From Nocardia tengchongensis (lineage in GTDB: Bacteria > Actinomycetota > Actinomycetes > Mycobacteriales > Mycobacteriaceae): DNA of 64,000 bases. Position 1 is the stretch's first letter. Every line of letters starts with the position of its first letter. The notes beneath the pieces were generated by a model. The model ran no database searches. It saw nothing but the letters and a program-made list of their open reading frames with translations, and was not told where the DNA came from. The stretch spans positions 2,046,001-2,110,000 of the forward strand of contig NZ_CP074371.1 in the NCBI RefSeq assembly GCF_018362975.1. The letters are read 5' to 3'. Below, one piece after another: positions 7,329 through 61,507 of this stretch. A program made the position numbers and the translations under genes.

Positions 7329-7367
7329 GGCCTATTTCCGCCCCTTCTCGCGGCCGTGGACCCCGGA

Positions 7368-7475
7368 GTTCACGGCCCCGCCGCGTTCTGGACTGAGTGG
7401 AGCGGGGGAGGAGCGGAGGGACGGAAGAACGCGGCCCGAAGGGGCCGTGAACAGCCCGGAGCGAAGCGTAGGGCA
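7368..7475 (+). repeat. structured dispersed repeat, copy 1
   Basis: An outer perfect 12-bp stem (GTTCACGGCCCC at 7368-7379 with its complement at 7441-7452) encloses an inner 9-bp stem (7381-7389 with 7426-7434). The apical loop contains TTCTGGACTGAGTGGAGCG and a purine-rich GGAGCGGAGGGA. Eight bases after the outer stem comes GCGAAGCG followed by AGGGCA. The same architecture recurs at 61314-61451 with different, still complementary, outer-stem bases. Strand is arbitrary and function unknown. Confidence 0.7.
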
Positions 7476-7767
7476 GGTCAGCACAGTGATCTTGCTCTGG
7501 GACAGGCGATCTCGCGTTTTGTCAACTCGTGCCGCCACTTGACGACTTTCGTCCGAGCCGTCACGCTATTCACAACAGCGGCGGCTGTCACAGGAGACAA
7601 CTCGCCGGCGTGGGCCATGTGAACGCAGCCAGCGGACTCTGGAGCCCGGCCGGACACTTGTGAAGACCGCCACTCGGCTGTGCTGGTATCGGCGCTCGGA
7701 CGCCGGGAATATCGACGCAGACACACCGGGGCGAAGTTGCCGCCCGCGGATCGCCACGGGTGGTACT

Positions 7768-7797
7768 TTGACACCCCCGTAGGTTTGGGTGTAGTTT
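7768..7797 (+). promoter_or_regulatory. predicted rpoBC promoter
   Basis: A consensus -35 TTGACA (7768-7773) is separated by 18 bases from a -10-like TAGTTT (7792-7797). This is the best sigma-A-type match in the rpoB leader and faces rpoB. It would place the transcription start near 7805. Confidence 0.55.
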
Positions 7798-7963
7798 TGG
7801 ACGTTGCGCTGGCTGCCTCCTGTCCATACCTCGATCGCATCACGAAAGTTTCGCCTTCCGGTGTTACTTCCGCTGTCTGCTGTTCGGGTTTCGTTCGGGT
7901 CGTAACCAGCGGAATTCGTAGCAGACAAGCGACGGTCGCGGACCACCACGCGACGCGCGTTAG

Positions 7964-61170: not shown

Positions 61171-61313
61171 ACCGCCTCGACCACCACGGGCACGGATATC
61201 CGTCCCTACCTGTTCAACTGCCGATTTTCCTCCCGCAGTGTAGAGCGCGCACGATGTGAGCTGTTGCCCTACGGCCCGATACGACCGCGGGACAATCCGA
61301 ACCCTCACCCATA

Positions 61314-61451
61314 GGTTCGCGGCGCGTCTCGTTCTGGACCGAGTGGAGCGGAGGAGCGAACGGCTCCATAGTCCTGCGCCTTGGGAGCGCGGAGGGAGGG
61401 AAGAACCAGACCTCCAGCGCCGCGAACCCGCCCGTGGCGAAGCGGAGGGCA
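61314..61451 (+). repeat. structured dispersed repeat, copy 2
   Basis: Perfect 12-bp outer stem GGTTCGCGGCGC (61314-61325) with 61417-61428, and an inner stem GTCT-C-GTTCT (61326-61335) with 61402-61411. The shared loop motifs are CTGGACCGAGTGGAGCG and GCGGAGGGAGGGAAG, and GCGAAGCG-GAGGGCA starts exactly eight bases after the outer stem, as in copy 1. An extra 30 or so bases, including an inverted GGAGCG/CGCTCC-like segment, lie in the loop. A GGCAAT/ATTGCC palindrome (61465-61480) follows it. Confidence 0.7.
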
Positions 61452-61507
61452 AATAACCCAGCGTGGCAATCATCATTGCCGGTGGTGTGCTGACTTAGCA
61501 TTCGGGA

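Follow-up and report, generated by a model that had tools for sequence, protein, structure and literature searches.

A window of 64,000 nucleotides from the Nocardia tengchongensis genome contains, upstream of rpoB, a hairpin-forming sequence that occurs a second time near the other end of the window with different bases in its stems. The first-pass annotation described it as a two-copy element, placed emphasis on the rpoB leader, and left three options for its nature: an RNA element, a protein-binding hairpin or a small non-autonomous mobile sequence. What kind of element is it, at which level is its structure maintained, and does its position ahead of rpoB matter?

Structure and number of copies

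Reading of the sequence agreed with the earlier description of the two copies in most details. The 12-bp outer stems have unlike bases and are fully complementary in both, the loop motifs are common to both, GCGAAGCG starts eight bases past the outer stem in copy 1 and copy 2, and each copy has an inner stem, with one mismatch in copy 2. The intervals 7368-7475 and 61314-61451 given for the element were too short because a 5' motif and the tail as far as ACACNG also belong to it. The parts of the two copies are as follows.

7360..7486, + strand: copy 1, whole element, from 5' motif ACCCCGG to the ACACNG-type end GCACAG (ends from family logos)
7368..7379, + strand: copy 1, hairpin 1, outer stem 5' arm GTTCACGGCCCC, pairing with 7441-7452 over 12 bp (sequence, DNA and RNA folds)
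7380..7388, + strand: copy 1, inner stem 5' arm GCCGCGTTC, pairing with 7427-7435 over 9 bp (sequence, DNA and RNA folds)
7389..7426, + strand: copy 1, purine-rich loop starting TGGACTGAGTGGAGCGGGGGAG, 10 nt shorter than the model consensus (alignment)
7441..7452, + strand: copy 1, hairpin 1, outer stem 3' arm GGGGCCGTGAAC (sequence, DNA and RNA folds)
7454..7474, + strand: copy 1, hairpin 2, GCCC-GGAGCGAAGCGTA-GGGC with C(GAA)G apex (sequence, DNA fold, family apex statistics)
7475..7486, + strand: copy 1, tail AGGTCAGCACAG, its last G also present in alignable element-free relatives
61307..61461, + strand: copy 2, whole element, ACCCATA to ACCCAG (ends from family logos)
61314..61325, + strand: copy 2, hairpin 1, outer stem 5' arm GGTTCGCGGCGC, pairing with 61417-61428 over 12 bp (sequence, fold, model)
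61326..61334 and 61403..61411, + strand: copy 2, inner stem with the one mismatch
61361..61380, + strand: copy 2, loop insert CGGCTCCATAGTCCTGCGCC, 20 nt relative to the model, near-identical to an insert in copy L032 of the same genome (alignment, model)
61417..61428, + strand: copy 2, hairpin 1, outer stem 3' arm GCGCCGCGAACC (sequence, fold, model)
61430..61450, + strand: copy 2, hairpin 2, GCCC...GGGC with C(GAA)G apex (sequence, RNA fold, model)
61451..61461, + strand: copy 2, tail AAATAACCCAG (sequence, family logos)

The single-sequence fold of copy 1 is the family structure, and none of 200 shuffled sequences equalled it (z -3.9 as DNA, -4.1 as RNA). For copy 2, 3 of 200 shuffles equalled the fold (z -2.5 as DNA, -2.6 as RNA). 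Its single-sequence folds keep the outer stem and lose the inner stem with both DNA and RNA parameters, and the DNA fold also misses hairpin 2; the inner structure of copy 2 is therefore assigned because the family supports it and not from the single-sequence fold.

A BLAST search of the source genome (G000; 8,006,012 bases in one contig) with copy 1 returned 28 places at E<=1.6e-4. A covariance model, R1, was built from 17 of the 28 aligned G000 copies (alignment A2, with copy 2 in and copy 1 out). It recovered 28 copies in G000 at E<=1.3e-18, followed by few weak or partial matches, and it matched copy 1 at 7366-7489 (98.1 bits, E=4.4e-22) and copy 2 at 61312-61466 (127.5 bits, E=3.4e-29). 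The description as a two-copy element is thus superseded. The first-pass annotation had proposed a covariance model and a genus search, and held that a search finding only these two copies would speak against the element; the opposite was found. In the genus, 131 of 148 genomes contain a match at E<=0.01, and the stems covary; in the family, 52 of 301 genomes, spread over 7 of 31 genera, contain a match at E<=0.001. Copy numbers from these searches are lower bounds, with at most 22 candidates scored per genus genome and at most 11 per family genome, and the copies are related and partly orthologous, so the counts lack independence. The G000 copies are divided evenly between the strands (14 plus, 14 minus). 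Along the G000 sequence, the 3.3 Mb from 4.0 to 7.3 Mb hold 1 of the 28 copies (binomial P about 7e-6 for a uniform distribution).

A strict pattern for hairpin 2 plus tail matched G000 at 16 places, against 1 for the reversed control. Thirteen of these fall inside the 28 copies, those at 2461198 and 7980545 are solo hairpins, and that at 6091336 has an unlike tail and may be a chance match. L036 is another solo hairpin in this genome. A known RNA family was considered and rejected, as the window had no Rfam match at the gathering threshold and five of the loci gave two weak, unrelated matches at E<=5.

Aligned copies define a unit of about 130 bases, in which hairpin 1, with a two-part stem of about 21 bp and a purine-rich loop, is followed by hairpin 2, a spacer and ACACNG. 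The 5' motif is weak, (A/C)CCCNAA, and leads into the outer stem of about 12 bp and the inner stem of about 9 bp. The family loop is TGGACTGAGNGGAGCGGGGGAGCGAAGCGGAGGAGCGGAGGGAGGGAA, mostly purine downstream of TGGACTGA. Hairpin 2 reads GCCC-GGAGCGAAGCGGA-GGGC, with 3 to 5 outer pairs in G000. Of 106 distinct rows, 97 have the apex C(GNA)G, where N is A in 73, G in 12, C in 11 and T in 1; d(GCGNAGC) is a DNA mini-hairpin of unusual stability. Past hairpin 2, an A/T-rich spacer of about 4-8 nt ends at a sharp 3' boundary, ACAC[ACT]G, and beyond its G the conservation is at most 0.25 bit per position (133/134 copies, right-hand logo). The logo tails were anchored on the best ACACNG-like match within 14 nt, which inflates the information inside the six positions but not the abrupt stop. 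The loop, the hairpin-2 apex and the tail are conserved across genera and lie outside the palindrome arms. By eye, the consensus left end ACCCNAAGG is not an inverted copy of the right end ACACNG, and no terminal inverted repeats (TIRs) were found.

Some copies depart from this plan. L264, L261, L259, L101 and L091, all from the clade G002/G035/G037/G101/G133/G077, have an extra 5' module like GCACATCTGCGAGCCGTNNACC upstream of hairpin 1, which the G000 copies are without. The loops of L032, L033, L034 and window copy 2 (61361-61380) each contain an insert of about 20 nt, of which there are two kinds, CGGCTCCATAGNCCTGCGCC and GCGGCTTGATAGACCTCCGCCT; these may be an additional small hairpin or what is left of a nested unit.

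Covariation in the stems

The pairing of the stems was examined over the family, with pair counts from model-fitted alignments, which lean towards pairing. Among 106 distinct rows, 25 of the 27 pairs were changed on both sides, amounting to 402 cells compared with 76±8 in shuffles, and 96.7% of cells pair compared with 25-47% when the partner is slid; a 47-row set agrees. The proposal in the first-pass annotation that the structure is maintained is strongly supported by this covariation. Covariation alone is no proof of RNA. The frequency of G-U pairs was compared with that in the RNase P RNA gene of the genus, rnpB. For this control 24 genus genomes were searched, giving 22 full-length loci of which 21 were used (one near a contig end and two partial matches in G014 were excluded).

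In all 108 rows, G-U pairs occupy 33 of 2695 cells (1.2%) of the model's stems, and double changes outnumber single changes 403 to 30. The rnpB control, with an alifold consensus of the 21 genus genomes, has 328 G-U among 2855 (11.5%) and 80 double to 122 single changes. The gap is narrower (5.8-6.3% vs 9.2-11.5%) when less model-bound folds are used: alifold on 22 random copies of the element gave 43 G-U among 687 (6.3%) with 34 double and 23 single changes, and single-sequence folds gave 46 of 799 (5.8%) for the element and 273 of 2964 (9.2%) for rnpB. In both of these counts for the element, some purine-loop positions that are unpaired in the model take part in pairs. Stem evolution of the RNA type, with G-U intermediates, is thus not what the model's stems display, and the difference is smaller with unconstrained folds. 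Near-strict Watson-Crick stems are less expected of a functional RNA than of folded single-stranded DNA (ssDNA), a cruciform or palindrome arms repaired by template switching, and the covariation probably reflects structure at the DNA rather than the RNA level. Counting G-U pairs beside those in RNase P RNA of the same genus can tell the two levels apart at little cost.

Placement beside genes and the rpoB copy

Gene starts were taken from a codon-usage predictor, not from annotation. Among 30 G000 copies, two solo hairpins included, 29 had a gene start downstream in the direction of the element (13 co-directional, 16 divergent and 1 other placement). The L025 copy (3535420-3535556, minus) meets the 3' end of rnpB (3534993-3535422, plus), and the count was therefore corrected to 28 of 30. 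A same-orientation gene start also lies downstream of 16 of 20 copies in G141, 16 of 17 in G072 (tandem copies counted apart) and 6 of 6 in G011, 38 of 43 together, with no convergent case. In a set of 51 copies of other genomes, 19 face the 3' end of a gene, 12 of them between convergent genes. The gaps between genes in the window are oriented ++ in 18 cases, -+ in 10, -- in 7 and +- in 6.

The element end lies within 1 nt of a TANNNT hexamer at L009, L014, L021 and L030, and the hexamer is shared with element-free relatives. The last G of the element is the G of the predicted GTG start at L011, L029 and L031; at L017 and L022 a GTG also stands at the element end and the predictor picked a later start. 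The tail itself contains the predicted start codon, 2-4 nt past GGAGGGC, in L012, L018 and L026. At L012 the tail overlaps the predicted start codon and puts a Shine-Dalgarno (SD)-like GGAGG ahead of it; two relatives have their own GGAAGGAGACC site at this place, which is missing in G000. The placement fits insertion into promoter DNA opened by RNA polymerase, counter-selection elsewhere and regulatory use alike.

For copy 1, hairpin 1 starts 38 nt past the stop of the upstream gene, which has no Pfam match and which we take to be an mce-associated gene, and hairpin 2 ends about 490 nt ahead of the predicted rpoB start. The upstream gene has 79% identity to a locus of Nocardia niigatensis, and the beginning of rpoB matches N. 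farcinica DNA at 89.7%, on which the assignment of the searched genus to Nocardia is based. The orthologous gap was fetched from the best 30 of 144 matching genomes, and 29 of these had the upstream anchor. The element is present in 3 of the 29 (G000, G001 and G073) and absent from 26, and the element-free relatives have the conserved block on the rpoB side intact. This block, window positions 7487-7960, begins with TGATCTTG, contains ACTTGACGAGTTTCGTCCGA...CACGCTATTCACAAC and later TTTGACACCCCCGTAGGTTTGGGTGTAG, and is conserved upstream of rpoB in the relatives compared; it is probably the rpoB promoter region. An rpoB-leader RNA was rejected because the element is only sporadically present at orthologous gaps. 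The emphasis on the rpoB leader was positional only, and the rpoB link of copy 1 is incidental.

Mobility and the nature of the element

Comparison of gaps between genomes suggested movement of the element. It occurs in opposite orientations between the same pair of genes in distant species (L162/L191 and L164/L108) and in species whose flanks are 93-97% identical (L254/L262, L264/L261 and L101/L248). In the latter three gaps the match between the elements is on the same strand and that between their flanks on opposite strands, and the remaining gap sequence differs. Next to the new copy, L248 has a short stretch that looks like the 3' end of an oppositely oriented copy. The five gaps are explained most simply by separate insertions; inversion in place could also produce opposite orientations. 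Arrays of partial and full copies were found in L120, L176, L177 and L186, and tandem copies number three in L176 and three in or beside L100. In L120 one full copy is accompanied by left halves and by right halves, and the simplest account is that new copies entered the loop of an older one again and again; in L177, L181 and L186 5'-truncated 3' units come after a full copy. Tandem duplication is an alternative for some arrays.

Junctions were examined by searching the joined flanks of 12 G000 sites in 8 relatives. Seven sites (L009, L012, L014, L021, L026, L029 and L030) could be aligned to element-free relatives, with 18 comparators, and in these the 3'-side homology resumes at or beside the G of ACACNG. 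By eye, 16 of the 18 comparators have the target G in their empty site, the exceptions being L217 (at L012) and L202 (at L021). Alignable relatives at the rpoB site have it as well, and at L262 the relatives have T or A instead. The added opposite-orientation gaps and the target-G exceptions roughly cancel in weight. For the N before the final G, element and relatives agree at 2 of the 7 sites. None of the aligned sites has a clean 5' junction, and the upstream sequence is often replaced or diverged. Empty sites have at most one shared G at the 3' junction, and as the 5' junction is not fixed, target duplication is not shown.

Part of the variation is loss. In a clade of six species about 95% alike (G002/G035/G037/G101/G133/G077), the flanks of 16 loci were searched and 9 aligned, and 5 of these had a relative differing by at least 40 nt. 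At L266, L255, L262 and L261, all 7 comparators are without hairpin 1 and retain hairpin 2; therefore this part of the variation is loss rather than gain, hairpin 1 being lost by deletion while hairpin 2 persists. The outer 3' arm is partly present in two of the cases, and the ACACNG tail only in some. At L254, the relative L277 has a hairpin-2 remnant on the opposite strand instead. In L266, about 40 nt upstream of hairpin 1 are absent in relatives together with hairpin 1.

A gene that could move the element was sought among its neighbours and among known transposases. The Y1 (REP/IS200) transposase family PF01797 has no match in G000 and matches 27 of 146 genus genomes, compared with 131 of 148 for the element, and no convincing copy lies beside 20 Y1 loci of relatives (best E 0.12); a Y1/RAYT mobiliser was rejected on these grounds. 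The flanks of the A4 copies, with G000 excluded, encode 188 predicted proteins in 138 clusters, the largest of 4 members, with no recurrent gene family, and the 25 largest clusters seem for the most part to come from a single site shared by several genomes or from copies within an array. An autonomous partner or cargo gene was rejected accordingly. In the collections searched, a Nocardia copy had no match among named plasmids or phages, and copies from two other genera had none among plasmids; a copy from a third gave only 56-nt matches to four Streptomyces plasmids, annotated as alpha/beta hydrolase. Two patterns had no match in viral contigs, and the hairpin-2-with-tail pattern matched one contig (L340; 17.6 bits, E 0.013), so these collections yielded no convincing relative among plasmids, phages or viruses. 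An attC site was also considered and set aside, since the arm order GTT...AAC is opposite to the usual attC order.

Several known repeat families share features with the element. REP sequences and REPINs, as described in PMC3116915, are likewise short, extragenic, dispersed, predicted ssDNA hairpins with compensatory stem changes, tandem clusters and decayed singlets. A REPIN consists of two inverted REPs and is associated with a RAYT gene (same paper), whereas the alignments of the Nocardia element have two unlike hairpins in direct order, with no Y1 gene in G000 and no clear copy beside those of relatives. BOX of Streptococcus pneumoniae is also modular, structured and interspersed, varies in module number and has repeats nested in one another (PMC3049150); the likeness concerns modular behaviour. 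According to the same paper, BOX has TIRs and causes target duplications, and these two features characterise miniature elements (MITEs) in general, whereas neither TIRs nor target duplications were shown for the Nocardia element, whose one sharp end is the 3' end. Bacterial MITEs such as Correia are also small and non-autonomous; according to PMC10969869, Correia elements lie mostly immediately upstream of genes and some MITEs carry promoters, and the names Actinobacteria, Nocardia, Rhodococcus and Mycobacterium occur 0 times in that review. Linear-replicon telomeres of Actinobacteria (Rhodococcus) have a central motif GCTXCGC (PMC7276702), the reverse complement of the GCGNAGC mini-hairpin in the element; this is a lead, although telomeres are replicon ends, the Nocardia copies are internal repeats, and the heptamer alone is in common.

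In its layout, the 3' end a short distance past a hairpin presumably resembles that of Helitrons, which, like IS91, are rolling-circle elements with a HUH (Y2/Rep) enzyme. The element behaves like REPINs and BOX and fails the testable defining features of REPIN/RAYT and of strict MITEs. It is a MITE in the broad sense, being dispersed, sporadic at orthologous sites and without a cargo gene.

Of the three options raised at first, the mobile sequence fits best, and the RNA element is weakened because G-U pairs are rare and Rfam has no match. We consider it likely, at roughly 70%, that the element is miniature non-autonomous mobile DNA of the ssDNA-hairpin type, found in Nocardia and some related genera and moved by a putative mobiliser. 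In such a process, a strand left single during replication, repair or transcription would let the hairpins fold as DNA; a putative enzyme supplied in trans would bind them, cut at the fixed 3' end and join this end to an intergenic target, in most cases beside a G; and copies would then decay through loss of hairpin 1, with hairpin 2 tending to stay. What we infer from the comparisons above is that the intermediate is ssDNA, that the enzyme acts in trans, that certain targets are preferred and that neighbouring genes may be affected. A more specific proposal, which is possible and to us doubtful, is that such miniature ssDNA elements form a new class and transpose by a chemistry of their own, in which a fixed 3' ACACN is joined mostly to a target G, the 5' ends are free or truncated, TIRs and a Y1 transposase are lacking, and a putative nocardial enzyme moves the element, steered to ssDNA at promoters. 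Such steering would explain the same-orientation placement upstream of gene starts.

That placement could instead reflect a regulatory role, and to this extent it counts against a mobile element. As a cis-regulatory RNA, the element would form part of the transcribed 5' UTR of the gene that follows, and its fold would control transcription or translation. The strong stem covariation, the 28 of 30 G000 copies ahead of a same-orientation gene start, the SD-like GGAGG in hairpin 2 and the start codons within or directly past the tail, 2-4 nt past GGAGGGC at L012, L018 and L026, agree with this; we nevertheless think it unlikely, given the 1.2% of G-U pairs in the model's stems against 11.5% in rnpB (with the smaller gap in unconstrained folds), the sporadic presence at orthologous genes, the copies of other genomes that face gene 3' ends (19 of 51) or lie between convergent genes (12), and the Rfam result. 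A promoter or protein-binding module acting as DNA, with transcription signals or an operator, spread by selection and kept where useful to the downstream gene, would account for the orientation bias in G000, G141, G072 and G011 and for the four ends at shared TANNNT hexamers. Flank logos have no standout promoter-like motif, however, other species carry copies between convergent genes, and the module alone leaves mobility unexplained and may be a consequence of it, so we hold it to be improbable. Finally, the covariation could be a by-product of template switching between the arms of a quasi-palindrome, the copies being inert debris free of selection on the hairpins. Template switching would give Watson-Crick repair without G-U intermediates, and arrayed and truncated variants fit slippage at palindromes, but the loop, hairpin-2 apex and tail are conserved across genera although outside the arms, and the opposite orientations between species about 95% alike suggest active movement; we regard this explanation as very improbable.

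Mobile DNA that folds as single strands is thus our preferred reading. Nocardia is a genus of opportunistic pathogens and natural products, and its genomes carry a high-copy structured repeat close to gene starts, of which the literature searched yielded no description. If the element is mobile, an enzyme other than a resident Y1 transposase would be needed, and the mobiliser becomes searchable.
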